Position numbers and translations under genes: made by a program. Source: Bacteroidaceae bacterium (GTDB lineage: Bacteria > Bacteroidota > Bacteroidia > Bacteroidales > Bacteroidaceae). From it: a DNA stretch of 64,000 bases. The notes beneath the pieces are model-generated. The model was not told the DNA's origin and did not search any database. It saw only the letters and a list, made by a program, of their open reading frames with translations. This document shows positions 980 to 31,920 of this stretch, in pieces (within the stretch, counting starts at the first letter, position 1; each line of letters opens with the position of its first letter). Location: NCBI GenBank assembly GCA_017534535.1, contig JAFXVZ010000028.1, forward strand, positions 31,873 to 95,872, in the 5' to 3' direction.

Positions 980-1019
980 AGGACTTTTTTTAGGTATTTT
1001 CGCCTTTTGTCAACAAAAA

Positions 1020-1065
1020 GTGAACTGTTTGGGAACTGTTTTTCATTGCCTAAACCCTTATTTTG
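1020..1065 (+). promoter_or_regulatory. Direct-repeat operator and -7 box, site A
   Basis: Half-sites GTGAACT (1020-1026) and GGGAACT (1031-1037) lie 11 bp apart. Exactly 20 bp after the second is a -7-like box TTATTTTG (1058-1065), close to the Bacteroidota consensus TAnnTTTG. The same layout occurs upstream of five other genes here. No TTTG -33 box is present at the usual distance; the second half-site lies just upstream of that region, so an activator may be needed (inference). Confidence 0.6.
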
Positions 1066-1090
1066 TGGTGTTGAATTTAAAAATGAAGAA

Positions 1091-2290
1091 ATGAAGACAA
1101 TGAAAACGAAGATTTGGATGATGGCAACGCTCACTTTGATGGTGGTTGCTTGTACAGAGAAACCCGTGAGTCTTGATACACCTTATATAATAGAAGGAGA
1201 GCTGACGGGAGTAAGGGATGGGGTATCGATTCGTCTTTCCCAAATGGATGGCAATGTAGGTACTAACTTAGCCACTGATACCATTATTGGGGGAAAGTTC
1301 CGTTTCGAGCAACAAATGCAAGACCCTGAGTTGAACAAGTTAATGCTATTGGTTACTGATAATGATTTTCCTCTTTTGGGTAAGACAATTTATGTAAAGC
1401 CAGGTGCCCGAGTGAAAATAAAAGGAAATGGCAATCACATCATGACTTGGAAAGTGGAAAGCAAGGTGCCTGAACAACGGGCTTATGATGAATTGCAGGC
1501 GATACCCGAGTATGAAGCTTTCCAGGAGGTGGCACTTGAAAGAACGAAAATTATGAATGAATTGTTCGCAATCGACAGAAAGACAGAAAAGGAGCGTTAT
1601 CGTGAAGCCTATAACCGTTATGCAGCCAATGGTAAGCAGGCGGATTCTATCCAAAATATCATTACTGGCAAGCAAATTGAAATCATGAAGCGTACAAAGC
1701 CCTCTGAGCCTTGGCTCAGTGAGTTGTTTGATTTAGCAAGGATGTCAAACGCTTATTCTGAATATGCTTTTACTGAGGATGCCAAAGCATTGTATCAGTC
1801 TTTGCCTGAGGAAACGAAGCAGAGTAAGCAAGGTTTGGAGGTATATGCCAACCTTTATCCCCCCAAGCAGGCGTTGAATGGCGATGATTTCCCTGATGCT
1901 GACTTCTACGACCTCAATGGTAATCTGCATCACATAGCCGAGCACAAGGGCAAATACATTTTGCTCGACTTCTGGAGTAGTGGTTGTGGGCCTTGCATTA
2001 CTGCTTTTCCTGTTATGAAGCAACTTTATGAAGAATATGGTGACAGGTTGGCTATTGTGAGTATGAGCACTGACACAGAAAGACGTTGGCGCAAGGCTTC
2101 TGCAGAGCATGATATTACTTGGAGCAATTGGAATGAATTGAAAGGAGAGGGTGGTATCTATACCAATTATCGCATAAGCGTCACCCCTTACTATGTGTTG
2201 ATTAACCCCGAGGGTAAGATAGAACAACAGATTGAGGGCTTCAGAGAAGAACCATTCAGGGCTCTCTTCTCTGAACTATTTGAGAATTAA
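1091..2290 (+). CDS. DUF4369-TlpA thiol-disulfide lipoprotein, paralogue 1
   Basis: Predicted envelope lipoprotein of 399 residues: signal peptide with lipobox VVAC, an N-terminal beta-rich DUF4369-type region, a charged helical middle, and a C-terminal thioredoxin-like TlpA/AhpC domain with active-site CGPC (Cys299, Cys302). Such proteins reduce or isomerise disulfides in the periplasm; the partner is unknown. ATG 1091 or 1100 is preferred over upstream in-frame starts because the -7 box lies at 1058-1065 and the signal peptide begins here. A propeller lipoprotein follows after 15 bases and a TPR-HTH protein after that, suggesting a three-gene operon. The first 40 codons are nearly identical in DNA to the paralogue at 12824, a sign of recent duplication or conversion. 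Confidence 0.88.
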   Translation: MKTMKTKIWMMATLTLMVVACTEKPVSLDTPYIIEGELTGVRDGVSIRLSQMDGNVGTNLATDTIIGGKFRFEQQMQDPELNKLMLLVTDNDFPLLGKTIYVKPGARVKIKGNGNHIMTWKVESKVPEQRAYDELQAIPEYEAFQEVALERTKIMNELFAIDRKTEKERYREAYNRYAANGKQADSIQNIITGKQIEIMKRTKPSEPWLSELFDLARMSNAYSEYAFTEDAKALYQSLPEETKQSKQGLEVYANLYPPKQALNGDDFPDADFYDLNGNLHHIAEHKGKYILLDFWSSGCGPCITAFPVMKQLYEEYGDRLAIVSMSTDTERRWRKASAEHDITWSNWNELKGEGGIYTNYRISVTPYYVLINPEGKIEQQIEGFREEPFRALFSELFEN

Positions 2291-2305
2291 TTGAATTACT
2301 GAGGC

Positions 2306-3328
2306 ATGAAAGAAATAGGAATTGTTGGTTTGTTGCTTGGTTTGTTGGCATTGGTTTCTTGTCAGCATGAACAACAAGTGACTGACATTCAAGAAATCGT
2401 GCCATCAGATTCCATTGAATTGGAGATTGGTCGTCAAAATAACCTCTTTGTTTATGATGACAAACTGTTTGTTACTGATACCAAGTTGATGGATGGTGCC
2501 ATTCAAGTGTATGACCTCAATACAAATCAATTCTTGTTTTCTTTCGCCAATGAGATGGATCTTTATATTGACACAAATCAGGTCTCTCATTTAGATTTCT
2601 ATGAGGTGAATGGTGAGGAAAGAGTGGATATTTATGTGTTCAACAGAAAGATTGTGACCTATAACTATGAGGCTATCTTGCAAGAAAAATACAAAGCTAA
2701 GCCTTTGATGGAACGTAATGTTCATGAAAAGTTTCCACATTTCGGGCTTTTTTCTAAGACCAAGAATGGTTACATAATAACAGAAGCTCATCCTGAAGGT
2801 AAATTCCTATTACTCTCAGATTCTTTAGAACTTTTAAAACATGCAGGGAATTATCGTCCCAAGCCTGATGAATCTTATGGAGATGTAGTGCATGCTTTAG
2901 CAAACTGGGGTTATATAAGTTTATCGCCTGATAAGCGATATTTGGCTGATTGTCTGACGATGGCACCAATTATCACCCTTTATGAGTTGACCGAAAACGA
3001 TATGGTGAAGCGATGGGAGTATGTAGAAGAGGAGTTGAACTATGTTCCTTTTGATGAGAATAATTATATGCCTAATATTAAGGATGGATATGTGTCTGCT
3101 TCTTTCTCAGAAAGATATCTATATGCCCTCTATGGGGATGAGCCAGAGGATGATGAGATTGGTCATTACAGGCGAGAGGTGCATGTGTTTGATATTCTGA
3201 CGGGTGAAATAGTGAAGCAATATCTCCTGAATAGACCTTCTAAAGATATCGTATGGCATAGGGGTTGGTTATATGTCTTGACCTATGAGCATAGCCCCAT
3301 TGTGCAGATTTACAAACTTGAGGAATAG
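2306..3328 (+). CDS. Six-bladed-propeller-like lipoprotein (BF3164-like), paralogue 1
   Basis: 340-residue predicted lipoprotein: signal peptide ending in lipobox LVSC, then beta-strand repeats with recurring short YDL/VFDI strands, as in the TolB-like/BF3164 lipoproteins of Bacteroidales. No catalytic residues are recognised; such propellers usually bind ligands or proteins at the cell surface or in the periplasm. It lies between the TlpA-like gene (15-base gap) and the TPR-HTH regulator (5-base gap), so the three are probably co-transcribed. A sensor or input role is inference from that context. Sequence identity to the other propeller lipoproteins in the window is low by eye, so the family assignment is moderate. 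Confidence 0.72.
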   Translation: MKEIGIVGLLLGLLALVSCQHEQQVTDIQEIVPSDSIELEIGRQNNLFVYDDKLFVTDTKLMDGAIQVYDLNTNQFLFSFANEMDLYIDTNQVSHLDFYEVNGEERVDIYVFNRKIVTYNYEAILQEKYKAKPLMERNVHEKFPHFGLFSKTKNGYIITEAHPEGKFLLLSDSLELLKHAGNYRPKPDESYGDVVHALANWGYISLSPDKRYLADCLTMAPIITLYELTENDMVKRWEYVEEELNYVPFDENNYMPNIKDGYVSASFSERYLYALYGDEPEDDEIGHYRREVHVFDILTGEIVKQYLLNRPSKDIVWHRGWLYVLTYEHSPIVQIYKLEE

Positions 3329-3333
3329 ATGAA

Positions 3334-4923
3334 ATGTTAAAGCGAATCTTTTACATAGTATTGATGTGTTGCTTGATGTGTGGAGGCATCTGGTTGGTTT
3401 GGTATGGAAGCTATTCTCCTGCGATGAATCAAGCAGAGCAATTGTTTGCTGAGTCAAGATACATTGAATTAAGGCAGATGCTTGATAGCATCAAGGGCGA
3501 TATCTTGCAAGAGGGTAAGTCGGTAAGGATGCGTTATCATCTATTGAACATCAAGACAGACAATGTCTTAGGCATTCGTCCTGCATCAGATAGCCTTGCC
3601 CTTTCTGTGGTGGATTACTATGAGCATGGAGGAAGTAAGGCCTACTTGGGCGATGCCTATTACTATGTTGGTAATATCTACCACGATTTCAATGATGCCA
3701 ATAGGGCCTTGGAGTACTACCAGAAAGCCCTCGACACGATGGAGGGGATGCAAGATAAACCGACTTTGCTGGCTAAGGAGCATGTCTATGAGCAAATGGG
3801 GCATCTCTTCTATGGCCAACAACTTACTGAACAAGCCCATGAGTCGCTGAAGAAGGCACGCTCTATAGCCAAGCAATTGAATGACACCATCGGCATGATT
3901 CGCATTTATCGTGATGTTGGTAGAATATTCTTACAAAAGAAAAACTATTTGATGGCACATCATAACCTCAATGTGGCAAACAACCTGTCTTTACTCATCA
4001 AGCGTGATGGAGGACTTTATCGCTCTGTTCTTTTGCAGGAGTGCTTGCTTTATATGGCTGAAGATGAATGGTCTTCAGTTGAAAATCTGCTCAATATGTT
4101 CCTCAAACGGCCTCGTATTACAGATGATAAAGAAATGCTTTACACCATTGCTGGCGATTATCATGCCCACGAGCAACGTTATGACTCAGCTGCTTTTTAT
4201 TACAACAAGCTTTTGCAAATGGAGTCAGTGAAAGTAAAGCGAGAGGCAAGTGGTAAACTCTTGGATGTTGCAGCTCGGGCAGGCGATAAGCAAATGGTGT
4301 TACCCTACTTGTTGAAATATCAGCAATACACTGATTCTGTGCTGAATATCACCGATACAGAGAACATTGCCCGCATCAATGCCTTGTACAACAGTCGTCA
4401 GCTGGAACGTCAGAACGAGGCACTTCACAAGGAGAAGCAACGATATGCCTTCTATGTCATCGTCATTTCTTTACTGATGCTTATTTTGGTGGCTGGTGCC
4501 TTGGTGTATTATCGTATGTCGAAGGCTGAGATTCAGCAACTTCGTTCCAACAATGCCTTGCTGGATGAGTTCCGTATGAAGCAAACGGATGAACGCAAGC
4601 AGATTATCATGACAAGTGAGCTTTATAAGCGACTCCAGCACTCCCTAATGCCTGCAAAAGATGCTGATTGGGAGGAAATGACCAACCTGATTAACCAAGT
4701 TTATCCAGACTTCCTCACTCGCTTGGGTACTTTGGGTATCCTCAAAGAACAAGAGTTGAAAGTATGTATGGCCCTTAAGATGGGCTTCAAGCCAGCAGAA
4801 ATTGCTCGCTTGATATCGAGGGAGAAGAATACCGTCACCAATGCACGAGCCCGTATGTACAAGAAGGTGACAGGTAAGCCTGGCAAAGCTGAAGATTGGG
4901 ATGAAGTCATCATGAAGCTATAG
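3334..4923 (+). CDS. TPR-transmembrane-HTH regulator, paralogue 1
   Basis: 529 residues with an N-terminal hydrophobic segment (5-25), a long run of tetratricopeptide-type helical repeats (about 30-350), one strong membrane helix (about 372-394), a short coiled-coil-like stretch and a C-terminal helix-turn-helix resembling the LuxR type (about 480-520, containing GFKPAEIARLISREKNTV). This topology places the TPRs in the periplasm and the DNA-binding domain in the cytoplasm, a one-component membrane transcription factor without phosphorelay. The domain order is seen; the regulatory role is inferred. Two paralogues lie at 4997 and 17068. It is last in the TlpA-propeller operon. The DNA targets are unknown; the shared GTGAACT operators are candidates. 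Confidence 0.8.
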   Translation: MLKRIFYIVLMCCLMCGGIWLVWYGSYSPAMNQAEQLFAESRYIELRQMLDSIKGDILQEGKSVRMRYHLLNIKTDNVLGIRPASDSLALSVVDYYEHGGSKAYLGDAYYYVGNIYHDFNDANRALEYYQKALDTMEGMQDKPTLLAKEHVYEQMGHLFYGQQLTEQAHESLKKARSIAKQLNDTIGMIRIYRDVGRIFLQKKNYLMAHHNLNVANNLSLLIKRDGGLYRSVLLQECLLYMAEDEWSSVENLLNMFLKRPRITDDKEMLYTIAGDYHAHEQRYDSAAFYYNKLLQMESVKVKREASGKLLDVAARAGDKQMVLPYLLKYQQYTDSVLNITDTENIARINALYNSRQLERQNEALHKEKQRYAFYVIVISLLMLILVAGALVYYRMSKAEIQQLRSNNALLDEFRMKQTDERKQIIMTSELYKRLQHSLMPAKDADWEEMTNLINQVYPDFLTRLGTLGILKEQELKVCMALKMGFKPAEIARLISREKNTVTNARARMYKKVTGKPGKAEDWDEVIMKL

Positions 4924-4956
4924 CCAACTTGTATGTTGAAAAAAGCAACCTTTTGT

Positions 4957-4987
4957 TTTGTGCTCTCGTTGGCTATCCTTATCTTTG
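4957..4987 (+). promoter_or_regulatory. Promoter of TPR-HTH paralogue 2, giving a nearly leaderless mRNA
   Basis: TTTG (4957-4960), 19 bp, TATCTTTG (4980-4987): a textbook Bacteroidota -33/-7 pair. The ATG of the next gene is at 4997, so with a start site about 6-8 bases after the box the leader would be only a few bases. Unlike the neighbouring TlpA and propeller promoters, it has no GTGAACT repeat. Confidence 0.7.
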
Positions 4988-4996
4988 CATTAGTTA

Positions 4997-6316
4997 ATGA
5001 AACATCTATTATACATATTACTCTCTTTAATGCTCAGCTTCACCTCTTGCCACAGACAAATGGGGTTGGGGGAGGCTTTGGCATTGTCAGATAATTTGTA
5101 TAAAAATGGTAATGTTAGTGCGAAGGAAGAGTCCATGATGCAATCATTGCTGTACTACCAACGTGCCATCGATATATTACCTAACAAAGATACGGCTACA
5201 TTATACCGTAAGGTAAGGATATACACAGAGATGGGAAGCCTCTTTGCCAAACAACTGCTCTACCAAGAGGCCATCGACAGATACCAATTGGCTTATGAAT
5301 GTGCTGAAAAACTGCAAGATACCCTCAATATGATAAAGTCCTATCAAGGGGTAGGCGATATGTATCGCAAACTGCATGATGTGGGAGAATCTGTCCATTA
5401 CTACGACTTGGCAGAGCAATTGGCTGAACAAGCAGGATTGGAGAAAGTAAGAGTATCAACAGCTCTCCGCATAGCCGCATCTTTCCTCGATAATGGCAGG
5501 TTGAACTTAATCACAGAGCTCTTGCCCAAGCCTCCTTATGAGGTTGAACCTGAGGATGAAGACATCTATAACAATGTGATGTGGCATATCTATAGTTTTA
5601 CTGATCGTGAGGATAAGGATTCTGCCGACTATTTTATGCATAAGTTGATGGAATCTCCTGACACCTATTATAAAAACTATCTCATCAATTGGCAAATAGG
5701 GGTAATGCTTAGAAATTCAAATGGAGGTACTGGCTATCAGTTGTATAGACAGAAAGAAAGATTGGAAAGTGAAATGTCCAAAGAGCAAAGTGCCGAGGCA
5801 ACATCAGCAGTAAGTACCATGTATCAAGCCTTGAACATGGAACGCCAGAATGCCGAATTGCAGGCTCGCAATCAGCTTATCAAGTACTATGCCATCATCG
5901 TCATCCTGCTTTTGGTGTTGGTGGTGACCATCTCCGTTATCCTCATCTATCGCATCATCAACAAGCGTATTCTTTTCGAGCATACCACCACAATGACCAT
6001 TCGCGACTCAGACATCTATCAACGATTGCTTGCCACAGAGAAAGCCATGAGTGATGCCGATCAGGAGGAGGTGATGACCCTGCTGAATCAACTCTACCCA
6101 GATTTCTTCCCAAGCTTGAAGAAGCTGGGAGTGGAGAAAGAACAGGACATGAAGATTTGCCTTTTGCTTAAAATGGGCTTCAAGCCCTCTCGCATAGCCA
6201 GTCTCGTAAGTCGTACAGATAGTGCCATTGCCAACACCCGAGCCCGATTATACAAAAAGGTGTTTGGCACTGATGGCAAAGCGGAAGATTGGGATAAAGT
6301 GATTATGGAATTGTGA
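4997..6316 (+). CDS. TPR-transmembrane-HTH regulator, paralogue 2
   Basis: 439 residues: signal sequence with lipobox FTSC (Cys18), TPR-like helical repeats (about 25-280), membrane helix (about 298-320), and a LuxR-like HTH (about 390-430, GFKPSRIASLVSRTDSAI). The C-terminal GKAEDWDKVIMEL tail is shared with both paralogues. The lipobox plus an internal helix would anchor the TPR part in the periplasm and leave the HTH in the cytoplasm. It has its own strong promoter rather than the GTGAACT operator, as expected if it controls that regulon from outside (inference). The N-terminus could equally be a plain signal anchor. Confidence 0.8.
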   Translation: MKHLLYILLSLMLSFTSCHRQMGLGEALALSDNLYKNGNVSAKEESMMQSLLYYQRAIDILPNKDTATLYRKVRIYTEMGSLFAKQLLYQEAIDRYQLAYECAEKLQDTLNMIKSYQGVGDMYRKLHDVGESVHYYDLAEQLAEQAGLEKVRVSTALRIAASFLDNGRLNLITELLPKPPYEVEPEDEDIYNNVMWHIYSFTDREDKDSADYFMHKLMESPDTYYKNYLINWQIGVMLRNSNGGTGYQLYRQKERLESEMSKEQSAEATSAVSTMYQALNMERQNAELQARNQLIKYYAIIVILLLVLVVTISVILIYRIINKRILFEHTTTMTIRDSDIYQRLLATEKAMSDADQEEVMTLLNQLYPDFFPSLKKLGVEKEQDMKICLLLKMGFKPSRIASLVSRTDSAIANTRARLYKKVFGTDGKAEDWDKVIMEL

Positions 6317-6346
6317 ATCAGTGTATTGCTAAACCTCTCCTCTTTT

Positions 6347-6403
6347 GTGAAGTTTTTGTGAAGTCTATTTTGTACTATCATTCCATCACTTTTCATTACT
6401 TTG
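6347..6403 (+). promoter_or_regulatory. Direct-repeat operator and -7 box, site E
   Basis: GTGAAGT (6347-6353), TTTT, GTGAAGT (6358-6364), the same 11-bp period as site A with a C-to-G change in both half-sites. The -7-like TTACTTTG or TACTTTG lies at 6396-6403, about 31-32 bp after the second half-site, so this is a long-spacing version. Confidence 0.5.
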
Positions 6404-6419
6404 TGGCTAAAAAAATAAA

Positions 6420-7415
6420 GTGATGAAGAAGATGTTTTATTTATGTGTGGCTGTATGTCTAATGCTTTGTGGCTCAGCCTGCGATGGTACAAAGAAGTTC
6501 CAAAATGTGGTGAATGTACATGACAAGATTCAGGTTTTTGATCCTGAAGAAGTCATGTGTAGTAAGGTTGCTACTCTGAGTGTAATGGGCGATTACCTGA
6601 TTATCCGAGATTCTGGAGACCAAGGGAAACTTTTCCATTTGTTTGACAAACACAATCTGCAATATCTCTGTAGTACTGGCGATAAGGGACAAGGTCCTGG
6701 TGAGCTAAGTGGCGCATGGAGTACTATGTACGATGAGGCTCGTCATAAGTTCTATGTGCCAGATCCTAACTACCTGAAGATTTTCAGCTTCGATATTGAT
6801 AGCTTGATGAAAGATCCTGACTATTTACCTACTGTGAAACAAGAAATTAAGAAGGATGATGGAGGAAATTATCCCTTGGATGCCATTTATGTGAATGACA
6901 CCTTGGCTTATGGGAATGGGATTCAATTTTATGAAGAGAAGTATCGCTATATTGCTATGAAGTGGAATATGCAGACGGGTCAATTGTGGTTCAATCAGCA
7001 TCATCAAGGTAAAAGGACTTATGGCGCCTATGTGGCTTATTCAGAGAGGCATAATCTGTTGGTACAGAGTGATGGTGCCTATGATGAGCTGACCTTTTTA
7101 GATGGCGATATGAACCTGATTCGCTATGTGAAAGGTCCTCAATGGAGTGAAGAACGTGATGCTTTGTCTCATTTTGGGAGTGTGGACTTTTATAATGACT
7201 ACATCATTGTGGAGTATGATGGCACGGGATGGGCAGAAGGTCATTATGCTCGAATCTGTTATGTGTTTGACATTCAAGGCAATTATGTCAAGACTCTCAA
7301 TCTGGATTATAATATCAACACCATCAGCGTTGACGAAGAGAATGATCGTCTATACATCACTTTCATCGATGAAATCCAGTTTGGTTACTTGGATTTGAAG
7401 GGATTGTTGCCTTAA
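6420..7415 (+). CDS. Six-bladed-propeller-like lipoprotein, paralogue 2
   Basis: 331 residues (330 if the second ATG at 6423 is used): signal peptide with a lipobox ending GSAC, then a beta-rich body with the CSTGDKGQGPGEL-type turn found in BF3164/DUF5128-like propeller lipoproteins. Probable surface or periplasmic ligand-binding protein with no catalytic signature. It follows TPR-HTH paralogue 2 by about 100 bases, but that gap holds its own operator-promoter (site E), so it is probably a separate unit. A TlpA-like gene follows after about 100 bases, again with its own operator. Confidence 0.75.
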   Translation: MMKKMFYLCVAVCLMLCGSACDGTKKFQNVVNVHDKIQVFDPEEVMCSKVATLSVMGDYLIIRDSGDQGKLFHLFDKHNLQYLCSTGDKGQGPGELSGAWSTMYDEARHKFYVPDPNYLKIFSFDIDSLMKDPDYLPTVKQEIKKDDGGNYPLDAIYVNDTLAYGNGIQFYEEKYRYIAMKWNMQTGQLWFNQHHQGKRTYGAYVAYSERHNLLVQSDGAYDELTFLDGDMNLIRYVKGPQWSEERDALSHFGSVDFYNDYIIVEYDGTGWAEGHYARICYVFDIQGNYVKTLNLDYNINTISVDEENDRLYITFIDEIQFGYLDLKGLLP

Positions 7416-7435
7416 ATTTCCCTCAAGCCAAAAAA

Positions 7436-7481
7436 GGGAACTCTTTGGGAACTCTTTCAAGCCTTCAAAACCCTATATTTG
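7436..7481 (+). promoter_or_regulatory. Direct-repeat operator and -7 box, site B
   Basis: GGGAACT (7436-7442), CTTT, GGGAACT (7447-7453), 20 bp, then a perfect -7 box TATATTTG (7474-7481). The downstream ATG is at 7513. The layout matches site A base for base in spacing. Confidence 0.65.
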
Positions 7482-7512
7482 CCACAAAGTTTAACTAAAG
7501 AAGTGCGAGGTT

Positions 7513-8664
7513 ATGAAAATTAGATTTTTGATGCTGATGGTTTTGGCTTATGTGATGTTGGCTTGCAAGCCTGTGAGCCCTGATACTCCTTATTCAATAG
7601 AAGGGGAGTTGACAGGAGTAAGAGACAGTTTGGTAATCAGATTGGTTAGATGGGAGAATAACTTTGGTGAAACAATAGCCAAAGACACCATTCTGAATGG
7701 ACATTTCAAGTTTGAAGGAATCATTGATGATGTGAGCACTGACATTGAGCTATCGGTTAGAGATGAAGAGTTCCCGTCTATGAGCAGAAGGGTTTATGTA
7801 GCTCCAGGAGTAAAAGTCAAAGTGAAGGGAAGTGACAATTATATTGCTTCATGGAAGGTGGAGAGCCCACTGAAAGAACAACACATATACGATGAGATAG
7901 AAGCCCCTGCTAAGGAAGACAATCTGATACATCAAAAGGTGCTTATAGAGTATTACAAGAAGATGGGACTCTATAACCCTGAAAATTTTGATAGAGACGC
8001 ATTGCCTATACTTTCCAAACAATTTGATTCGATAAACAAAGTGATAGTGGATAAAGAGGTTCAACAGATGAAGAAGATGAAACCCTCTATTCCTTGGTTT
8101 GAAAAACTCTCGGCGTATGTGCGTTTGGTGAATAATGCTGAAGCCTATAGCGCACATAAACAGGAGTTTATAGATATGATCAACGCCATTCCTGATGATA
8201 TGAAGCAAGACCCTATGGCTATGGAGTTGCAGGCTTTTCTCTTCCCTCCCAAGCAAGCAAAGATTGGTGATGACTATCCTGATACCGATTTCTATGATCT
8301 GCAAGGTAACCTGCATCATATCAGTGAGCTCAAGGGTAAATACATCTTACTGGACTTTTGGAGTAGGGGTTGTGGTGGTTGCTTGCAGGCAATCCCCCAA
8401 ATGAAAGAAATGTATAGGGAGATGGGCGATAAGTTGGTGATGATTAGTATCAGTCTTGACCCTGAGAAACATTGGCGCACAGCTTCAAAACAGCATGAGA
8501 TTATTTGGAACAACTGGAATGAGATGAAAGGTAGAGCTGGTCTTTACACCAACTATCGCATCAATGCTATTCCGTATTATGTGCTCATCAACCCAGCAGG
8601 GAAAATCCAGGAAATCATCCTAGGCTTCAATAAAAACTATCTGATGGAGGCAATAGAATTGTAA
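7513..8664 (+). CDS. DUF4369-TlpA thiol-disulfide lipoprotein, paralogue 2
   Basis: 383 residues: lipobox VMLAC, DUF4369-like N-terminal domain, helical middle, and a TlpA-like thioredoxin domain with the active site changed to CGGC (Cys287, Cys290). The change from CGPC should shift redox potential and partner choice (inference from thioredoxin chemistry). The C-terminus is shorter than in paralogues 1 and 3. It appears monocistronic: a 560-base gap with a repeat element follows. The first nine residues are identical to the truncated copy at 10995. Confidence 0.88.
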   Translation: MKIRFLMLMVLAYVMLACKPVSPDTPYSIEGELTGVRDSLVIRLVRWENNFGETIAKDTILNGHFKFEGIIDDVSTDIELSVRDEEFPSMSRRVYVAPGVKVKVKGSDNYIASWKVESPLKEQHIYDEIEAPAKEDNLIHQKVLIEYYKKMGLYNPENFDRDALPILSKQFDSINKVIVDKEVQQMKKMKPSIPWFEKLSAYVRLVNNAEAYSAHKQEFIDMINAIPDDMKQDPMAMELQAFLFPPKQAKIGDDYPDTDFYDLQGNLHHISELKGKYILLDFWSRGCGGCLQAIPQMKEMYREMGDKLVMISISLDPEKHWRTASKQHEIIWNNWNEMKGRAGLYTNYRINAIPYYVLINPAGKIQEIILGFNKNYLMEAIEL

Positions 8665-8696
8665 CCTGAAAGGATAAACGACATGCAATCCAAGTT

Positions 8697-9070
8697 TGTA
8701 TATTTATGCGTAAAAATGCCTCAAAATAGGCACTCCGAGGGGTCGGCTCGATTAGTCCAAGTAATCGGGTCATCCTCCCGAAGTAAACGGCCCTTTTGCT
8801 TCAACTAATCGAGCCATTTGCTTCAAGCAAATTTTTGAGTAAAAAAGGTCTGTGTATATACGAATATTTATGCACAGTATTATTTCCTCGTGAGAGATTA
8901 TTCACTCCAGGAATAAGCCGATAATATGTAGATATGTCGGTATCATGTCGGCATCTTGTCGGTATCTTTCTTTTGGCAAAAGAGTTATATCTATCAGTAT
9001 ATTAGTTATTTACCGTAATGTGTCGGTATGTCGGGATGTTTTTTTTTAATTTGTGTCGTTTTTTATAGCG
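8697..9070. repeat. Intergenic repeat element A, copy 1, in a 560-base gap
   Basis: This gap carries no gene. Its left part holds 22-bp units (8778-8798, 8799-8820, partial 8821-8839) of the form CTTCAACTAATCGAGCCATTTG in slightly varied copies, and an inverted pair GGCTCGATTAGT (8745-8756) / ACTAATCGAGCC (8804-8815) that could form a hairpin. The right part holds repeated TGTCGGTATC-like decamers (about 8934-8970) and a conserved end near 9027-9065 (TGTCGGTATGTCGGGATG followed by a T-run). Left and right ends both recur at 27700-28178 in the same order; the middle differs. Confidence 0.7.
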
Positions 9071-9178
9071 TGAATAAGAAACGTAAAAAATGTGAGGCTT
9101 CTTTGGCTGTTTCTGCTAAGATAGCAATGGCTTATTTTCTTGTTTAACATTAATTAACCACCTAATATTTTGATTAAT

Positions 9179-9199
9179 TACGAAAAGTTCGTACGTTTG
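9179..9199 (+). promoter_or_regulatory. BlaI-type operator overlapping the M56 promoter
   Basis: Perfect inverted repeat TACGAA-AAG-TTCGTA (9179-9193) whose right arm overlaps a -7 box TACGTTTG (9192-9199). BlaI/MecI dimers repress by binding such dyads at promoters. A related ACGAA/TTCGT dyad sits at the other BlaI operon (32312-32328), which supports an autoregulatory role. Confidence 0.6.
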
Positions 9200-9226
9200 C
9201 ATCGTAGAATTTAATCAAATTGAATT

Positions 9227-10504
9227 ATGAACGTTATTATCACCATATTAATAAAGACGAATGCCATTTTGGGAGTTCTCTGCTTACTCTATTTGGCGTT
9301 ATTCCGCAAAGATACCTTCTTCTGTTTGCGTAGGGCATCGTTGTGGCTGATTTATGCTTTTGTTGCCATTTTACCGTTGGCAAGTAATCTGAATTGGAAT
9401 GTTGCCTCTCCTGTAGCTGGTAGTGTGGATGAAAGTATCAAAACGATTTGGACACAAGCAGTGGAAGTGGGTGTATATCCAGAAAAAACGGTATTTGATT
9501 TCAAAGCACTGTTCGTGTATATTTGGTTAATTGTTGTTGGTTTGCTGGTCTTCAGACTTTTATGGCAACTTGGCATGATTTGTTGGTTGGCCTGGAAATC
9601 AAAGGCAGGTGTTGTTGAAGGCGTGCATATCAGACAAACGGACGTAAAAGGCAGTCCGTTCTCTTTCTTTCGTTGGATATTCATTCATCAGGAAATGATG
9701 GATGAGCCTTGCCTGCATGAGGTGTTGCTACACGAGCACACCCATGTAAGGCAGTGGCACTCTGTAGATGTGTTGCTCAGTGAGGTGTTTTGCATACTCT
9801 GTTGGTTCAATCCCTTTGCGTGGATATTAAGGCGCGAGGTGCGTGTTAATCTGGAATACCTGGCAGATCAGAGCGTGGTGGACAAGGGGCATGATGCCCG
9901 TTCCTACCAGTATCATCTACTGGCTCTTACTTATCAAGGAAGTGTAGCTACTCTCAGTAATAATTTTAATGTTTTACCTCTTAAACAAAGAATCAAGATG
10001 ATGAACAAAGAACGTACCAAAAAGATTGGCAGAATGAAGTATCTGTTGCTTCTGCCTGTGTGCGCCCTGCTGTTTATGATGAGCAGTACACCTGTAAGTG
10101 CACAACAAGTAAAGAAATCTATCATTCATGAAGATGGCTCTGTTACAACGATGTACGGAGACAAGGAAGTGGAAATCAAGAAAGCCGGTGAAGATTTCTA
10201 TATAGTGGTGGAAGAAATGCCTGAGTTCCCTGGTGGTATGCAGGCGTTAATAGATTTTTTGAAGGCGAATGTACAATATCCTGAAGCTGCCAAGCAAGCA
10301 GGGGCGAGTGGTCGTGTTACCACCTCGTTCGTAGTAGGTGAAGATGGCGTTTGCCGAGATTTCAAGGTGTTGCGTGGTGTATCTCCAGAACTGGATGCTG
10401 AGGCATTGCGTGTTTTAGGACTCATGCCTAAGTGGAGTCCTGGCAAGCAGGATGGCAAACCTGTCCCTGTGAGATATACAGTGCCTGTTACATTTAACTT
10501 ATGA
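9227..10504 (+). CDS. M56 (BlaR1-like) membrane peptidase with C-terminal TonB domain
   Basis: 425 residues. N-terminal membrane helices (about 5-25, 35-55, 95-120), then the M56 zinc peptidase domain with HEHTH (His169, Glu170, His173), a further membrane helix (about 265-285), and a C-terminal TonB-type domain (about 320-425) starting with MPEFPGGMQALIDFL. BlaR1/MecR1 proteins sense an envelope signal and cleave or inactivate the partner repressor; the TonB domain replaces the penicillin-binding sensor, so the signal is probably not a beta-lactam (inference). The repressor gene lies downstream, the reverse of the usual order, separated by a strong hairpin. Confidence 0.88.
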   Translation: MNVIITILIKTNAILGVLCLLYLALFRKDTFFCLRRASLWLIYAFVAILPLASNLNWNVASPVAGSVDESIKTIWTQAVEVGVYPEKTVFDFKALFVYIWLIVVGLLVFRLLWQLGMICWLAWKSKAGVVEGVHIRQTDVKGSPFSFFRWIFIHQEMMDEPCLHEVLLHEHTHVRQWHSVDVLLSEVFCILCWFNPFAWILRREVRVNLEYLADQSVVDKGHDARSYQYHLLALTYQGSVATLSNNFNVLPLKQRIKMMNKERTKKIGRMKYLLLLPVCALLFMMSSTPVSAQQVKKSIIHEDGSVTTMYGDKEVEIKKAGEDFYIVVEEMPEFPGGMQALIDFLKANVQYPEAAKQAGASGRVTTSFVVGEDGVCRDFKVLRGVSPELDAEALRVLGLMPKWSPGKQDGKPVPVRYTVPVTFNL

Positions 10505-10515
10505 TCTATGAACCA

Positions 10516-10541
10516 GGAGGGTATGCTTCTGCATACCCTCC
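10516..10541 (+). terminator. Perfect 11-bp hairpin between peptidase and repressor genes
   Basis: GGAGGGTATGC, TTCT loop, GCATACCCTCC. There is no T-run after it, so it may be an attenuator or RNA-processing hairpin that sets the relative amounts of the two proteins rather than a full terminator. It ends 15 bases before the blaI-like ATG. Confidence 0.6.
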
Positions 10542-10556
10542 GCTAAACGTAAAAAG

Positions 10557-10922
10557 ATGGAGAAACTAACCAAACAAGAAGAAGATGTAATGATGCTCTT
10601 CTGGCAATTGGGTAAGGCGTGTTATATCCGTGAGGTGATGGACATATATCCTGACCCCAAGCCACCTTATACCTCTGTGGCATCAACGGTGAAGAATTTG
10701 GAGCGTAAGGGCTATCTGAAATCTACCGCCAAGGGGGTGTCTTATCTCTATAGCATCAATATCTCGAAAGACAAATATCGCAAGGCGTTCATGCAGACTT
10801 GGGTAAAGGACTATTTCCATGACTCTTATCGCCAAATGGTATCCTTTTTTGCCAAAGAACAAGCTATTTCTGCCGAAGATTTACGAGAAATCCTAAAAGA
10901 GATTGAGAAAGGCAAAATGTGA
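10557..10922 (+). CDS. BlaI/MecI-family repressor, copy 1
   Basis: 121 residues, the usual length. N-terminal winged helix (about 1-75: TKQEEDVMMLFWQLG, then VASTVKNLERKGYL as the recognition part) and a C-terminal dimerisation tail. The family represses its own operon until the M56 partner inactivates it. It is co-directional with the M56 gene 52 bases upstream. The last codons (ATG TGA) form part of the first half-site of operator C, so the stop codon doubles as regulatory DNA. Confidence 0.9.
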   Translation: MEKLTKQEEDVMMLFWQLGKACYIREVMDIYPDPKPPYTSVASTVKNLERKGYLKSTAKGVSYLYSINISKDKYRKAFMQTWVKDYFHDSYRQMVSFFAKEQAISAEDLREILKEIEKGKM

Positions 10923-10964
10923 ACTTTTTGTGAACTGCTTAAAGCCTTCCAAGCCCTATCTTTG
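10919..10964 (+). promoter_or_regulatory. Direct-repeat operator and -7 box, site C
   Basis: GTGAACT (10919-10925), TTTT, GTGAACT (10930-10936), 20 bp, TATCTTTG (10957-10964). This is the cleanest copy of the motif, yet it now drives only a 41-codon gene remnant. The first half-site contains the repressor stop codon. Confidence 0.65.
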
Positions 10965-10994
10965 CCAAGAAGTTTCACGAAAAACAATTAAGTT

Positions 10995-11120
10995 ATGAAG
11001 ATTAGATTTTTGATGCTGATGGCTTTGGACTGTATTTTAGTGGCATGTGGGTTGAAGCCAGTGAGCCCTGATACTCTTTATATAATTGGGGGAAATGAAT
11101 GGGTGGAGTTGGTGTCGTAG
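10995..11120 (+). pseudogene. Truncated DUF4369-TlpA gene (5' end only)
   Basis: An open frame of 41 codons encodes a lipoprotein signal (MKIRFLMLM start, lipobox LVAC) and the KPVSPDTLYII opening of the DUF4369 domain, then ends at TAG. It matches the first 33 or so codons of the gene at 7513, including the upstream operator. The thioredoxin domain is absent. The break is near 11095. It could still make a short lipopeptide because promoter, start and lipobox are intact, but decay of a duplicated gene is the simpler reading. Confidence 0.75.
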
Positions 11121-11235
11121 ATGTCATTCTTCAAACCTTTCCCTTCGAAGTGGAATCCCTTGCCATTAGCCTTGTTGTGCATCTTTTTAAACTCTTTCTC
11201 GTGGAGAAAAGAAAAACATTTCCTATATTTGTGCG
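11095..11235 (-). other. Possible coding remnant on the minus strand
   Basis: Reading leftwards from about 11230, one frame stays open for roughly 40 codons with protein-like composition (EFKKMHNKANGKGFHFEGKG and onwards) and ends at the junction with the TlpA remnant. I do not recognise the family. It may be a fragment of another gene joined to the broken TlpA copy, or chance. Confidence 0.25.
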
Positions 11236-11322
11236 ATGAAATGAAACTTTTAACACTTTTATGTGCAAGGTTTCATGTTTTTGGAATTTATGAGGCAGAA
11301 AACAGTTTAATATTTTGGCATT

Positions 11323-12672: not shown

Positions 12673-12756
12673 TGCTGTAAGCATTTCGTTAGCTTGTACA
12701 TCGGGGGGCATCAGCTAAGACTAATTAACGGCTAAAAGTACTTGAAAATTGAAATA

Positions 12757-12812
12757 GTGAATTTTTTGTGAACTCTTTTTTGCCATCAAAAGAAGTTTTA
12801 TTCGTATTTTTG
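12757..12812 (+). promoter_or_regulatory. Direct-repeat operator and -7 box, site D
   Basis: GTGAATT (12757-12763), TTTT, GTGAACT (12768-12774), then 30 bp to TATTTTTG (12805-12812). The gap is one helical turn longer than in sites A-C, and it contains a TTTG (12779-12782) near the -33 position. Confidence 0.6.
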
Positions 12813-12823
12813 ACCGTTAAATC

Positions 12824-14026
12824 ATGAAATTGTCAGAAATGAAAGCAAATTATTTGATGACAGCAGTCCTGACTTTAATGCTGACTGCTTGTACAGAGAA
12901 ACCCGTGAGTCCTGATACACCTTATATCATAGATGGTGAGGTGACTGGGGTAAAAGATGGTGTTGAGTTAGTGCTTGCCTCGTTTGACGGTGATGTGGGT
13001 AACCTCATTGCAAGAGACACCATTTTTGGTGGGAAGTTCCATTTCGAGAGTCAGATGGAAGACATTGAGGTAAACAGGTTGGGCTTATTTGCTGTGGATG
13101 ACGATTTCTCAAGTCTAAAAAGATACATATATGTAGCACCTGGTGCCCATGTGAAGGTTACAGGAAATGGCACACACATTATGTCTTGGAAGGTTCAGAG
13201 CAAAGTGCCTGAGCAAAAAGCCCTTGATGAACTGTATGCGATTCATGAATATGATTTTACACAAGATGTGCTTGTGGCAGAGAAGAAAGCACTCAAGGAA
13301 ATGCGGAGCATAGACCGCAATGCGGAACCAGAGCGTTATGCGGAAGCAAGGAGTCGTTATAATACTTTTTTTAATCAGCAAGATTCTATGTATTATGTTG
13401 TTCAAGAGAAACGTGCTTTGCTGATGAAAAACCTGAAACCATCTATGCCTTGGATGACAGAATTGAATTATCTAGCCAGGATGGTTCGTACTATGCCAGA
13501 ATTGACTTATGCAGAAGATGTGAAGGAGATGTTTCAAACTTTGTCTGAGGAATGGAAGCAAACCAAGTTGGGGAAGGAGATTTATGCCAACCTCTATCCT
13601 CCTCAGGAAGTGAAAGTTGGCGATGATTGTCCGGATGCTGATTTCTACGACCTTGAGGGCAATCTGCACCATCTGACAGAGCACAAGGGTAAGTATATCC
13701 TGCTTGACTTCTGGAATAGTGGATGTGCAGGTTGCATCCAAGCATTCCCTAAAATGAAGAAGCTTTATGAAAAGTATAATGACAAATTAGCCATTGTGAG
13801 TATGAGCATTGATACTGATCGTCGTTGGCGTATGGCATCAGAGAAGCACAACCTCACTTGGAGCAACTGGAACGAAGGTAAAGGCGAGGGTGGCTTATAT
13901 ACCAATTTCCGTACCAATGGCATACCTTTTTATGTATTGGTGAATCCAGAGGGCAAGGTCATAAAGATGGAGCTTGGCTATTTGGAAGATAATTTCAGTG
14001 CCCTCTTCACCGAATTGTTTGATTAA
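12824..14026 (+). CDS. DUF4369-TlpA thiol-disulfide lipoprotein, paralogue 3
   Basis: 400 residues (395 from the second in-frame ATG at 12839): signal with lipobox LTAC, DUF4369-like domain, helical middle, and a TlpA thioredoxin domain with CAGC (Cys301, Cys304). The N-terminal CTEKPVSPDTPYII stretch is almost identical to paralogue 1. The -7 box ends at 12812, so a start at 12824 would leave a very short leader and 12839 is a fair alternative. Monocistronic; a hairpin follows at 14087. Disulfide reductase or isomerase in the periplasm is the expected role. Confidence 0.88.
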   Translation: MKLSEMKANYLMTAVLTLMLTACTEKPVSPDTPYIIDGEVTGVKDGVELVLASFDGDVGNLIARDTIFGGKFHFESQMEDIEVNRLGLFAVDDDFSSLKRYIYVAPGAHVKVTGNGTHIMSWKVQSKVPEQKALDELYAIHEYDFTQDVLVAEKKALKEMRSIDRNAEPERYAEARSRYNTFFNQQDSMYYVVQEKRALLMKNLKPSMPWMTELNYLARMVRTMPELTYAEDVKEMFQTLSEEWKQTKLGKEIYANLYPPQEVKVGDDCPDADFYDLEGNLHHLTEHKGKYILLDFWNSGCAGCIQAFPKMKKLYEKYNDKLAIVSMSIDTDRRWRMASEKHNLTWSNWNEGKGEGGLYTNFRTNGIPFYVLVNPEGKVIKMELGYLEDNFSALFTELFD

Positions 14027-14086
14027 CGCTACAACAGAAACTAATGCTTCTTTCAGATACCTTTTCTATTCCTAATCAGTGAATGG

Positions 14087-14110
14087 CAGGCAGGGCTATG
14101 GCTCTGCCTG
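14087..14110. terminator. Hairpin between convergent genes
   Basis: CAGGCAGGGC-TATG-GCTCTGCCTG: a 10-bp stem with one G-T pair. It lies between the 3' ends of the convergent genes at 14026 and 14211. No T-run follows on either strand, so its strength is uncertain. Confidence 0.5.
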
Positions 14111-14210
14111 TTATGACTTGTCAATCTCACTAAATATATTTTCTTTCGTTATGATAATGCATATATACATAGCTTATCAAGATTTAGCGGGAGAGCGGAA
14201 GAAACATTCC

Positions 14211-15359
14211 TTATTTAGCTGTGAGTATCATCAATACAGGATTGGAGTCTTCATTTAGTGAAGAGGCGATTTCCTTCAGTTTGCCCTTGAGCTCCCCCTT
14301 CTCGTATGCCTCTATTAACTTGTGAGGCTGCAGGGCTCCTGCGCACAATATCGTTCTGTTTTGGGCAAGCCTAACCATATCCACTTGTTGTTTGGAAGTA
14401 TAGTCGGCATTCAGCACCACAGACAAATAAACCCCATTAGTTAGTTTATCATACACCAGTTCACGGAAAGGGAATCCCCTGCCTGTTTTGGGGTTGAACG
14501 TCTTGTCGATGGTTTGGAAGAAACAATAACGAGGTGTTACTGTGCCGATGGTCATCAGTCTTTCAGGGTCAGATGAAGGAATCTTCACCAAGAATGGCAC
14601 TGTTTTGTGATCTTTAGCGGTAAAGCGATAGATGGTATCTGAAGAGTTTTGAATAATCAGCATATCGTTGTGCAGAGGCATAATCGCATTGACATTGCCG
14701 ATAGAGGTTATTCCGCCTTCCTGAATCATGGGAATGTTCAGTTTCTTGTAAGGCACAGCAATCTCCTGCACAATACTCCCATCTTGCTTGGATACCAAGA
14801 AATGATAAGAACGACTGTTGTCTATCTCTGCTTTCTCTGCATCCATGAAGATGTTTTCATCATAACAAACCAAGTAGTCTCTGTCGAAACCCTTTACGTT
14901 CACGAACTTGTGCTCGTTGCTGTGCTTGAAACTACGTTTGAAGTTGCCCTCCAGGTCATATACCAGGATTTTTTTGATAGTAGGGTCATTCACAATAAGC
15001 TCATTGTTCACTTCATCAAGCACCACTTCATACGCATAGGTAAATTCCTCAGCCCCTTGTCCCACACGGTTTATCACCCTGATGCCTTTGCCTGTATGTC
15101 TGTCGAACAAGAGGAGCTTTCTGTCTGAAGCCATCACGAAATACTTTTCTCCCACCGCTTTGATGGTGGCAGAAGTAATGAACTCGTCTGAGCTCTCCAA
15201 AGGCACATACTCCACTTCCATGAAATCCTGCAAAATCAGTTCTTTCTCAGGATAAAACTGGTTCAAGTCAATGGTCATCAGTACATTGGGATTCTCATTG
15301 TTTTGGCAAGCAGTCAGCAATACTCCAGCCAAAATCCAACCTGTCAATCGTTTCATCAT
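14211..15359 (-). CDS. Six-bladed-propeller lipoprotein (DUF5128/BF3164-like), paralogue 3
   Basis: 382 residues: signal with lipobox LLTAC, then a propeller-type body with FMEVEYVPLESSDEFIT, VINRVGQGAEEFTYAYE and YDLEGNFKRSF, typical of the Bacteroidales 6-bladed beta-propeller family. It is strongly similar to the gene at 15817, and the last ~35 residues are almost the same. It follows the half-receiver gene by 26 bases on the same strand, so it is the third gene of the operon driven from site F. Surface ligand binding is likely; the ligand is unknown. Confidence 0.85.
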   Translation of the reverse strand: MMKRLTGWILAGVLLTACQNNENPNVLMTIDLNQFYPEKELILQDFMEVEYVPLESSDEFITSATIKAVGEKYFVMASDRKLLLFDRHTGKGIRVINRVGQGAEEFTYAYEVVLDEVNNELIVNDPTIKKILVYDLEGNFKRSFKHSNEHKFVNVKGFDRDYLVCYDENIFMDAEKAEIDNSRSYHFLVSKQDGSIVQEIAVPYKKLNIPMIQEGGITSIGNVNAIMPLHNDMLIIQNSSDTIYRFTAKDHKTVPFLVKIPSSDPERLMTIGTVTPRYCFFQTIDKTFNPKTGRGFPFRELVYDKLTNGVYLSVVLNADYTSKQQVDMVRLAQNRTILCAGALQPHKLIEAYEKGELKGKLKEIASSLNEDSNPVLMILTAK

Positions 15360-15385
15360 TCAGTTTTTTTATAAAATGTTAGTGT

Positions 15386-15820
15386 CTATTTCAAGCAAAG
15401 CTGATAGCCAACACCTCTGATATTCTCTATCCTTATATTGGGGTCTGCTTTGAGTATCTTTCTTAACTGACAGATAAGGTTATTGATAGACTGGTCGATG
15501 ACGATGACATCAGGCCACAGCATGCGGCAAATCTCTTCACGAGTCACCGTCATGTTCATGCAGACATAAAGGAGTGTAAGCAACTTGGTTTGGTAGGCAG
15601 AGAGGCGAGTGATTTGACCGTTTCCCTCTAATATCATGCTATTTGGCTGGAAGGTGAACAAGCCAATACTGATGTGCTTGTCCATCAAAATTACATCAGG
15701 TGCTATTTCCCTTACCTGCTGACCGAGCTCATTGGGACTACCTGTCTGCATGTCTTTATCTTGCAAGGCTCGCTCTAAGCTTACCTGCATATCCTTATCT
15801 TCTATTATTAGTATCTTCAT
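15386..15820 (-). CDS. Half-receiver winged-helix regulator, copy 1
   Basis: 144 residues. The first ~53 look like the first half of a response-regulator receiver: beta1 ILIIED (Glu7, Asp8), two helices, beta3 PDVILMD with the phospho-acceptor Asp47. The second half of the receiver (including the conserved Thr/Ser and Lys) is missing; residues 54-144 are a complete OmpR/PhoB winged helix (REEICRMLW, LRKILKADP, IRGVGYQL). A normal protein of this kind is about 220-240 residues. The start overlaps the stop of the upstream lipoprotein gene (ATGA). No kinase gene is adjacent. A second copy lies at 28176 with the same truncation, so this is a conserved form and not random damage. Confidence 0.8.
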   Translation of the reverse strand: MKILIIEDKDMQVSLERALQDKDMQTGSPNELGQQVREIAPDVILMDKHISIGLFTFQPNSMILEGNGQITRLSAYQTKLLTLLYVCMNMTVTREEICRMLWPDVIVIDQSINNLICQLRKILKADPNIRIENIRGVGYQLCLK

Positions 15821-16974
15821 TTGGCTGTCAGTATCATCAAAACAGGGTTGGAGTCTTCATTCAATGTAGAGGCGATTTCCTTCAGTTTGCCTTTGAGCTC
15901 CCCTTTCTCGTATGCTTCTATCAGCTTGTGGGCTTGCAAAGCCTTGATGCAAGTTTCCTTACCGTTGATAATACCCCTCATTAAATCCACTTGCTCAGGT
16001 CGGGTATAATCGTCGTTCAGCACCTCCACCTTGAAGAATTCGTTCATCTCTCTGTCATACACTAATTTGTTACGTGGAAAACCCTTGCCTGTCTGGGCAT
16101 CAAATATTCTGTCCATCGTTTCCATGAATATATAGCGAGGGGTGATGGCACCAATGGCCAACAGCCTTTCCGGCTCTTCCTTGGGAATCTTCACCAAGAA
16201 AGGTTCTTTCTGATAATCTTTGGCGGAAAATCGATAGATGGTGTCAGACGAGTTTTGTACAATCAGCACATCATCTTCTATGGGGATCACTGTGCGCAAA
16301 GCATCCATAGCCACTACATCGCCTTCTATTACCATGGGCACTCTAATCTTCTCAAATGGTATAGGTATCTCCTGTACAATGCTTCCATCTTGCTTAGAAA
16401 GCATATAATGATAGATGCGGGTTGTGTCTATCTCTTTGTTCTCCATTATCATGCTTGCCACATCGTACATAATGGCATCGTCGAGGCAAACTAAATAGTC
16501 TTTGTCGAAAAGGGTGATGTCGTCATAGTGGTGGTCTTCACCATAATTGAAACTGCGTTTGAAGTTGCCTTGCAGGTCATAAACCAACATCCTTTGTGTG
16601 TTTGTGTCGCTCACAAACAGCTCATTGTTCGCTTCGTCCATCTCCACATCGTATGGGAAGGTATATTCTTCTGCCCCTTGTCCTTTGCGGTCTATCACAC
16701 TGATACCCTTTCCTGTTTGCTTGTCGAAGAGTTTCAAAGTGCTACTATTGACCATTACGATAAACTTTTCCCCAATTGTTTTTATATTAGTAGTGATAAA
16801 CTCGTCCGAGCTCTCCAAGGGTACATATTGCACCTCCATGAAGTCCTGTAAGATTAGTTCCTTTTCTGGGTAATCCAGATTTAAGTCGATGGTGATTAAT
16901 CCATCGGTTTTGATGTTACTTTGGCAAGAGGCCATCAGTAATCCTATCAACATCCATACAATAATTCGTTTCAT
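15817..16974 (-). CDS. Six-bladed-propeller lipoprotein (DUF5128/BF3164-like), paralogue 4
   Basis: 385 residues from the ATG at 16974, chosen over an in-frame ATG 30 bases upstream because the signal peptide (lipobox LMASC) starts here. The body carries FMEVQYVPLESSDEFIT, IDRKGQGAEEYTFPYD and YDLQGNFKRSF, the same blades as paralogue 3. It is first in an operon with the half-receiver regulator and paralogue 3, behind a TACTTTTG promoter and the GTAAATT/GTAAACC operator (site F). Translational coupling to the regulator suggests that sensor and regulator are made in fixed ratio (inference). Confidence 0.86.
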   Translation of the reverse strand: MKRIIVWMLIGLLMASCQSNIKTDGLITIDLNLDYPEKELILQDFMEVQYVPLESSDEFITTNIKTIGEKFIVMVNSSTLKLFDKQTGKGISVIDRKGQGAEEYTFPYDVEMDEANNELFVSDTNTQRMLVYDLQGNFKRSFNYGEDHHYDDITLFDKDYLVCLDDAIMYDVASMIMENKEIDTTRIYHYMLSKQDGSIVQEIPIPFEKIRVPMVIEGDVVAMDALRTVIPIEDDVLIVQNSSDTIYRFSAKDYQKEPFLVKIPKEEPERLLAIGAITPRYIFMETMDRIFDAQTGKGFPRNKLVYDREMNEFFKVEVLNDDYTRPEQVDLMRGIINGKETCIKALQAHKLIEAYEKGELKGKLKEIASTLNEDSNPVLMILTAK

Positions 16975-17001
16975 CTTTTCAGCGTTTTTGGTTAGTTGCT
17001 G

Positions 17002-17057
17002 CAAAAGTAATTGTTAGTGTGTATAGATGCAAAAAAGAAGGTTTACAAAAAATTTAC
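17002..17057 (-). promoter_or_regulatory. Direct-repeat operator and -7 box, site F
   Basis: On the minus strand: GTAAATT (17057-17051), TTTT, GTAAACC (17046-17040), 30 bp, TACTTTTG (17009-17002). The half-sites diverge from GTGAACT but keep the 11-bp period and the spacing of site D. A TTTTTTG tract stands 20 bp before the -7 box. Confidence 0.5.
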
Positions 17058-31911: not shown

Positions 31912-31920
31912 GCCTAAAGT

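Follow-up and report, generated by a model that had tools for sequence, protein, structure and literature searches.

The 64,000-nucleotide (nt) stretch of Bacteroidaceae DNA considered here, hereafter the window (C44:31873-95872, on contig JAFXVZ010000028.1; the source genome amounts to 2.7 megabases in 49 contigs), contains six direct-repeat sites (A to F, Table 1), each made of two 7-bp units placed 11 bp apart, and we can conclude that these are very likely the operators of one-component membrane regulators with a tetratricopeptide repeat (TPR) sensor and a C-terminal helix-turn-helix (HTH) domain, which most likely activate envelope genes. Judged from sequence, the window furthermore appears to be one instance of a genus-wide rule, by which regulators with differing half-sites have these sites just behind their own gene.

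The notion of such a rule stems from the surroundings of related regulator genes. A profile search with the HTH domain found homologues in 65 of 158 genomes of the genus (E<=1e-15), with up to ten per genome, and in the 200 bp behind the stop codon of the 106 distinct regulator genes collected, an exact 7-mer (at least two G/C, three letters) recurs at lag 11 in 44 cases, at lag 12 in 20 and at lag 22 in 12, while shuffled sequences give about one per lag. When 4 genes are collapsed for identical downstream DNA, lag 11 is found behind 44 of 102 regulators as compared to 13 of 269 other open reading frames (ORFs) of the same loci. The held-out set, consisting of 20 of the 22 leftover genus matches with two near duplicates among them, gave the same picture, with lag 11 in 11/20 loci, lag 12 in 2/20 and any other lag in at most 1/20. 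The half-sites themselves vary strongly, GCGTACT, CCGCACA, GCACACT, GTACACT, GCGCAGT and GTGAACT all being found. In the window, sites F and E stand directly behind the TPR-HTH genes 4997-6316 and 17068-18468, respectively, and this order of regulator and site is repeated in genomes G026, G132 and G141 for F and in G028, G006 and G141 for E. An order-wide search gave matches in 55 of 295 genomes, with loci retrieved for part of these, and the 28 readable homologues in 29 loci outside the source genome have exact repeats at lag 11 in 5 cases and at lag 22 in 5. By eye, repeats are present in the high scorers (L201-L205), and matches below 57 bits seem to belong to different LuxR-type families and to lack repeats. 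A plasmid search returned no match.

The original prediction named the TPR-membrane-HTH proteins as candidate binders, and this is probably right, since sites lie directly behind such genes and half-sites track their recognition helix. A different binder was nevertheless favoured at first on account of the PhoB-like repeats, namely the receiver-less OmpR-type winged-helix protein 15386-15820 (the half-receiver) or a full RprY-like response regulator. Direct repeats of 7+4 bp are typical of PhoB/OmpR proteins (pho boxes), the 11-bp head-to-tail spacing fits a binder of this type, and the half-receiver is encoded in the operon behind site E and has a Trans_reg_C domain closest to RprY. However, relatives of the half-receiver (E<=1e-15) occur in just 8 of the 158 genus genomes, in a survey without a dedicated search for a full-length response regulator, lag-11 repeats follow TPR-HTH genes genus-wide, with half-sites that track the TPR-HTH recognition helix, and in genome G026 the regulator and its site are present although no half-receiver is detected at E<=1e-15. 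The protein also lacks a complete OmpR/PhoB receiver, Response_reg matching only at E 0.049 over residues 3-48. This candidate was dropped as the sites follow TPR-HTH genes, and we now give it a small chance; the half-receiver looks like a target and not a hub, and the binder most probably belongs to the TPR-membrane-HTH family. Two receiver-less RprY-like winged-helix genes, 15386-15820 (-) and 28176-28613 (-), each adjoin a propeller gene, and some of the half-receiver relatives in the 8 genomes are as long as full response regulators.

The letters of the half-sites follow the regulators as well. Regulators of the subclass whose recognition helix reads SAIANTR are accompanied by GTGAANT-like sites and those of the SAISNGR subclass by GTAAANY-like sites, and half-site classes in general track HTH subclasses, two of the three comparisons having given a bonus for the spaced box. 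At least two half-site types are mixed among the six sites, GTGAANT-like in A-D and F and GTAAAYY in E. The claim of one operator shared by a local regulon therefore stands as regards direct repeats, promoter phasing and envelope-type targets, but not as regards a single operator or a local regulon, given the types that match regulator subclasses and the genus-wide rule. A residue-base test covered 55 regulators whose repeat was clear enough, forming 42 clusters at 75% HTH identity. With only alignment columns 60-112 permuted, mutual information with half-site positions peaks at HTH columns 94, 95, 99, 102 and 103 (z 7 to 10; p as low as 200 permutations allow, with no correction for 357 tests). 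By alignment these columns are residues 78, 79, 83, 86 and 87, all part of the recognition helix, within helix 78-93 of the helical HTH model (mean local confidence score, pLDDT, 95.5). At column 95, Q goes with GT and E with AC at half-site positions 4-5 in 16/18 cases, and in 11/12 Q/E cases among 23 domains below 50% HTH identity, although this rule was derived from the same data on which both fractions were counted. In the held-out set, where 12 of 20 loci gave a half-site call and 7 of those 12 carry Q or E, the rule holds in 5/7 (Q 3/3; E 2/4). The matching of protein to DNA thus looks partly readable from sequence alone.

A more trivial explanation would be that the repeats arose by promoter copying alone, when TlpA and propeller genes were duplicated together with their upstream DNA, and are read by no protein. 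The flanks of B and C are indeed similar, the target genes are paralogous and half-site similarity follows overall protein relatedness, but the 11-bp phase stays constant while the letters change (GCGTACT, CCGCACA, GCACACT, GTGAACT) and before genes of different families. In addition, the held-out loci replicate the association and the residue-base rule holds below 50% HTH identity, and we regard this explanation as very improbable. Two further comparisons were set aside, a whole-domain Mantel test because it is confounded by descent, and one of orthogonality within genomes because 13/15 paralogue pairs differ, yet no more than HTH identity predicts.

As for the sites of the window, the original prediction of six direct repeats with an 11-bp period describes real elements, since a position matrix built from 14 sites, all from other genomes, ranks them 1-6 (D, C, F, E, A, B) and TTTG lies 24 or 34-35 nt downstream of each, counted from the end of the second half-site. 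Matches scoring >=15 number 5 in the window vs 0.1 per shuffle (20 shuffles), and matches scoring >=11 with TTTG at 24/25/34/35/36 number 7 (the six sites and a second register of A) vs 0.15 per shuffle. With at most one mismatch, the consensus is matched 6 times in the whole genome (once on contig C31) and 0 times in the reversed control, but with at most two mismatches 22 times vs 14, so that loose matching is mostly noise. The consensus has matches in 47 of 100 genomes, most of which look random beyond close relatives, and loose consensus counts, being at chance level in the window and noisy across genomes, were dropped as evidence. The longer pattern GTGAANT-N4-GTGAA-N(15-45)-TTTG is matched 27 times vs 3 in the reversed control in seven genomes with close regulators; in 19/27 the spacing is 36-37 from GTGAA, equivalent to 34-35 from the end of the half-site, and one of these 19 (C20) looks coding.

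The sites are phased with their promoters, which retain a TAnnTTTG-like box. The two spacing classes originally predicted are found, with 24 nt at A-C and 34 (D, E) or 35 nt (F) at the others, but contrary to the earlier claim the spacing of E does not exceed that of D, and that of F is longer by 1. In close relatives, the repeats downstream of regulators lie 34-35 nt from TTTG except at L072:2186 and in the outer pairs of double operators, and even when the repeats are picked blind to the promoter (58 genes), 25 of the 79 TTTG words found within 70 nt downstream have their first letter at 34-36. The pattern and its phasing are hence conserved in relatives, but the short class is confined to A, B and C among the sites compared (window and close relatives). 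It may be a single event that was copied, since the flanks of B and C are visibly alike, and as A carries an extra unit at the long-class position, gain or loss of one 11-bp unit would explain a class difference of about a helical turn. In A-C the second unit sits at the position of a -33 element, and the HTH is distantly sigma-region-4-like (Sigma70_r4_2 in 3/103 domains), as would be expected if the half-site served an alternative sigma factor as its -35-like element and were not an activator operator. The usual site is however repeated and about 10 bp further upstream, its promoters keep their TAnnTTTG-like box, and no sigma-factor family was reported among the ten TPR-HTH proteins scanned whole, which makes a sigma element highly unlikely compared with an operator. 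Double operators are found behind TPR-HTH genes at L102 (4354+4396) and L074 (9693+9734, 16241+16282), where they consist of two half-site pairs 41-42 bp apart, roughly four helical turns; L105 looks similar. In the long class TTTG is often found closely after the second half-site, and a degenerate third unit may occupy the -33 position.

The predicted architecture of the regulators is in agreement with a membrane-bound DNA-binding protein. Among 93 regulators of sufficient length, simple hydropathy gives a hydrophobic N-terminus for 84 and exactly one transmembrane-like segment beyond the N-terminus for 83, and a lipobox-like Cys is present in 54. A full-length model (mean pLDDT 84.9, predicted template modelling score 0.57) consists of a TPR-like helical solenoid, a single continuous helix 246-337 and the HTH. 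Pfam recognised only the TPR part with confidence in the three window and seven distant regulators, and reported no Trans_reg_C in these ten; with the HTH C-terminal, the proteins are thus not of the ToxR/CadC type. The HTH domains match GerE (PF00196) in 3/103 cases at E<=0.1 (best 5.9e-5), and their profile finds weak matches in the PDB, an archaeal regulator (8hno, E 0.018) and PdeL (7pk5, E 0.33). The nearest named model is BT3442_fam (NCBIfam NF053779), matched over nearly the full length by 7/7 distant regulators (E 1e-20 to 1e-31), and its cut-off of 940 bits was not reached by the window proteins (18-47 bits) or the seven distant ones (74-110 bits). The gene following the regulator encodes DUF3244 in 34 of 90 cases, a propeller (DUF5128) in 7 and a redoxin/TlpA-type protein in 5, by crude next-ORF calls, some of them incomplete, and in relatives NVEALA proteins and RND adaptors are also encoded behind sites.

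Taken together, the N-terminal TPR solenoid, with its hydrophobic and often lipobox-like N-terminus, is predicted to be periplasmic and would be linked by one membrane-spanning helix to a LuxR/sigma-4-like HTH at the C-terminus in the cytoplasm. Each HTH would recognise a 7-8 bp half-site, present in at least two head-to-tail copies spaced by a helical turn (11 bp, in some cases 12), an arrangement that suggests a side-by-side dimer or oligomer. The operator would usually lie about 34-36 nt upstream of TTTG in the promoter of the adjacent downstream gene, and extra copies (A-D) would recruit further promoters in trans; the half-sites of A-D resemble those of the SAIANTR regulators 4997-6316 and C44:2734-4056, which we infer to control them. 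An envelope signal sensed by the TPR domain would most likely lead to activation of genes for TlpA-type, propeller, DUF3244, NVEALA and RND adaptor proteins, activation being suggested because the operators precede promoters most of which, by eye, have no -33 TTTG at the customary spacing.

Besides the common origin of the Q/E rule and its counts and the outcome for E in the held-out set, several observations weigh against this interpretation. An exact lag-11 7-mer is missing behind 58/102 regulators and is present upstream of regulators in 8/67; no recognisable repeat was found behind regulator 3334-4923 or its relative L104, and at L098 (G162 C244; 2575-2606) the regulator has no operator behind it, a propeller gene starting 27 bp after the stop codon, with which it may form an operon. 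The L072 2186 repeat stands behind a regulator with no TTTG at the usual distance, and the strong matrix matches L033 (22.4) and L034 (24.3) elsewhere in the source genome have none within 40 nt. In the window, the loose consensus with up to three mismatches has 8 matches vs 5.76 expected, which is not significant by itself, and when only the score is considered, B (14.1) does not stand out from noise and A (18.8) is on a par with the top match in the 20 shuffles (18.7). Seven comparison genomes without close regulators, all larger, likewise give the long pattern 13 times vs 2 in the reversed control, one or two each, although just 2/13 have the right spacing. Finally, columns 65, 67 and 85, which are not part of the recognition helix, give a signal too, and half-site similarity follows the N-terminal part too (partial r 0.374 vs 0.335 for the recognition helix); since the N-terminal part also predicts half-sites, shared descent explains part of their similarity.

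Transmembrane one-component regulation as such is known. ToxR and CadC have an N-terminal winged-helix DNA-binding domain and a C-terminal sensor with a single membrane helix between them, and likewise couple sensing in the envelope to DNA binding in the cytoplasm, but in the present family the TPR part comes first and the HTH, presumably LuxR/sigma-4-like, is C-terminal. The RRNPP proteins of Firmicutes are cytosolic TPR peptide sensors with N-terminal HTH and C-terminal TPR, and resemble the present family in uniting TPR sensor and HTH in one protein and in having genes for small secreted proteins or peptides as neighbours, whereas here the domain order is reversed, a periplasmic location is predicted for the TPR part and 83/93 have one transmembrane-like segment. 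One might go further and picture a large family of private envelope channels in Bacteroidales, each with a membrane TPR regulator, a helix-predictable operator and a DUF3244/NVEALA-type secreted protein sensed by the periplasmic TPR, as a periplasmic counterpart of RRNPP with paralogues separated by a readable protein-DNA code, but this broader picture is speculative and in our opinion rather unlikely. The operator rule itself would assign a function as DNA-bound regulators to a large and little-studied family of Bacteroides-type gut bacteria, link uncharacterised secreted families such as DUF3244 to a regulator, and provide testable DNA-binding predictions. It was not found in the literature searched on TPR/HTH regulators, RprY, BT3442, DUF3244 and NVEALA (titles and abstract openings; most subscription papers and preprints lie outside the coverage). 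In the portions available, BT_3442 of Bacteroides thetaiotaomicron is described as a TPR protein for protein interaction heading a cluster in which BT_3441, Ig-like and homologous to PDB 3d33, is followed by MACPF and lipoproteins (PMC2954219). The order BT_3442-BT_3441 is much like that of regulator and secreted protein here, but the word transcription is absent from the text, and the passages concerned describe no operator. SusR-like and hybrid two-component (HTCS) regulators of B. thetaiotaomicron also have predicted direct-repeat operators near the regulator's genes, with spacings of 67 or 77 bp for SusR and about 21 bp for HTCS as opposed to 11 bp here; the terms tetratricopeptide, TPR and LuxR are absent from the main text (PMC3878776). 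DUF3244 and TPR genes appear in expression tables of a further study (PMC10434189).

Table 1. Direct-repeat sites and associated genes of the window. Distances are in nt from the end of the second half-site to the TTTG of the -7 box.
Feature	Position	Strand	Half-sites	TTTG (distance)	Remarks
Site A	1020-1037; with third unit 1009..1037	+	GTCAACA-GTGAACT-GGGAACT (three 11-bp units, starts 1009, 1020, 1031)	1062-1065 (24)	before TlpA-type gene, ATG 1112
Site F	6347-6364	+	GTGAAGT-N4-GTGAAGT	6400-6403 (35)	before propeller lipoprotein gene
Site B	7436-7453	+	GGGAACT-N4-GGGAACT	7478-7481 (24)	before TlpA-type gene 7513-8664
Site C	10919-10936	+	GTGAACT-N4-GTGAACT	10961-10964 (24)	before TlpA remnant, ATG 10995
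Site D	12757-12774	+	GTGAATT-N4-GTGAACT	12809-12812 (34)	before TlpA-type gene 12824-14026
Site E	17057-17040	-	GTAAATT-N4-GTAAACC	17005-17002 (34)	before propeller/half-receiver operon
TlpA-type thioredoxin-fold lipoprotein gene	1112..2290	+			behind A; DUF4369 match below cut-off
TPR-membrane-HTH paralogue	3334..4923	+			recognition helix NTVTNAR; next gene is paralogue 4997-6316
TPR-one membrane helix-HTH regulator	4997..6316	+			recognition helix SAIANTR; likely reader of F-type, perhaps A-D-type sites
TolB-like 6-bladed propeller lipoprotein gene	6420..7415 (ATG 6423)	+			behind F
TlpA-type gene	7513..8664	+			behind B
TlpA-type gene	12824..14026	+			behind D
Second propeller gene, E operon	14211..15359	-			
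Receiver-less OmpR-type winged-helix protein (half-receiver)	15386..15820	-			probable target in E operon
6-bladed propeller gene	15817..17004	-			behind E
TPR-one membrane helix-HTH regulator	17068..18468	-			recognition helix SAISNGR; likely reader of E

The target genes are largely as originally predicted, namely three TlpA-type genes, a TlpA remnant, propellers and the half-receiver, except that DUF4369 is not found beyond the first gene, where the match is below cut-off. The start of the propeller gene behind E is more likely ATG 16974, as the TTG at 17004 falls inside the -7 box. Further sites are found on the same contig beyond the window, at C44:4086 before a TlpA-like gene and at C44:2672, and contig C13 carries one more, upstream of a gene for an RND-type adaptor. 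The C44:2672 repeat is perfect and stands upstream of a fourth TPR-membrane-HTH gene, C44:2734-4056, so that the claim that the TPR-HTH genes lack the site themselves is right for the three in the window but not for this paralogue.

In other genomes, small NVEALA proteins are encoded near TPR-HTH genes at L072 (G006 C13; 4089-4313 and 6313-6543), L074 (17717-17950) and L093 (7534-7776), and both L072 genes have an operator in the promoter and propeller, serpin and signal peptidase I genes nearby. L032 5607-10863 (G000 C13) consists of a signal-peptidase-like gene, an operator and then RND adaptor and pump genes, and L072 14528-18998 of a TlpA-type gene followed by operator, adaptor and pump, the pump being judged from its translation. 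In the window, a long non-coding stretch with recurring GTCGGTATC-like words (8664-9226) is flanked by a TlpA gene and an M56/TonB gene. Two pairs of a BlaR1-type M56 peptidase/TonB-C protein and a BlaI-type repressor are encoded at 9227-10922 and 30238-32283 (the second judged from translation only), and these M56/BlaI-type pairs are perhaps another envelope-signalling system of the cluster.

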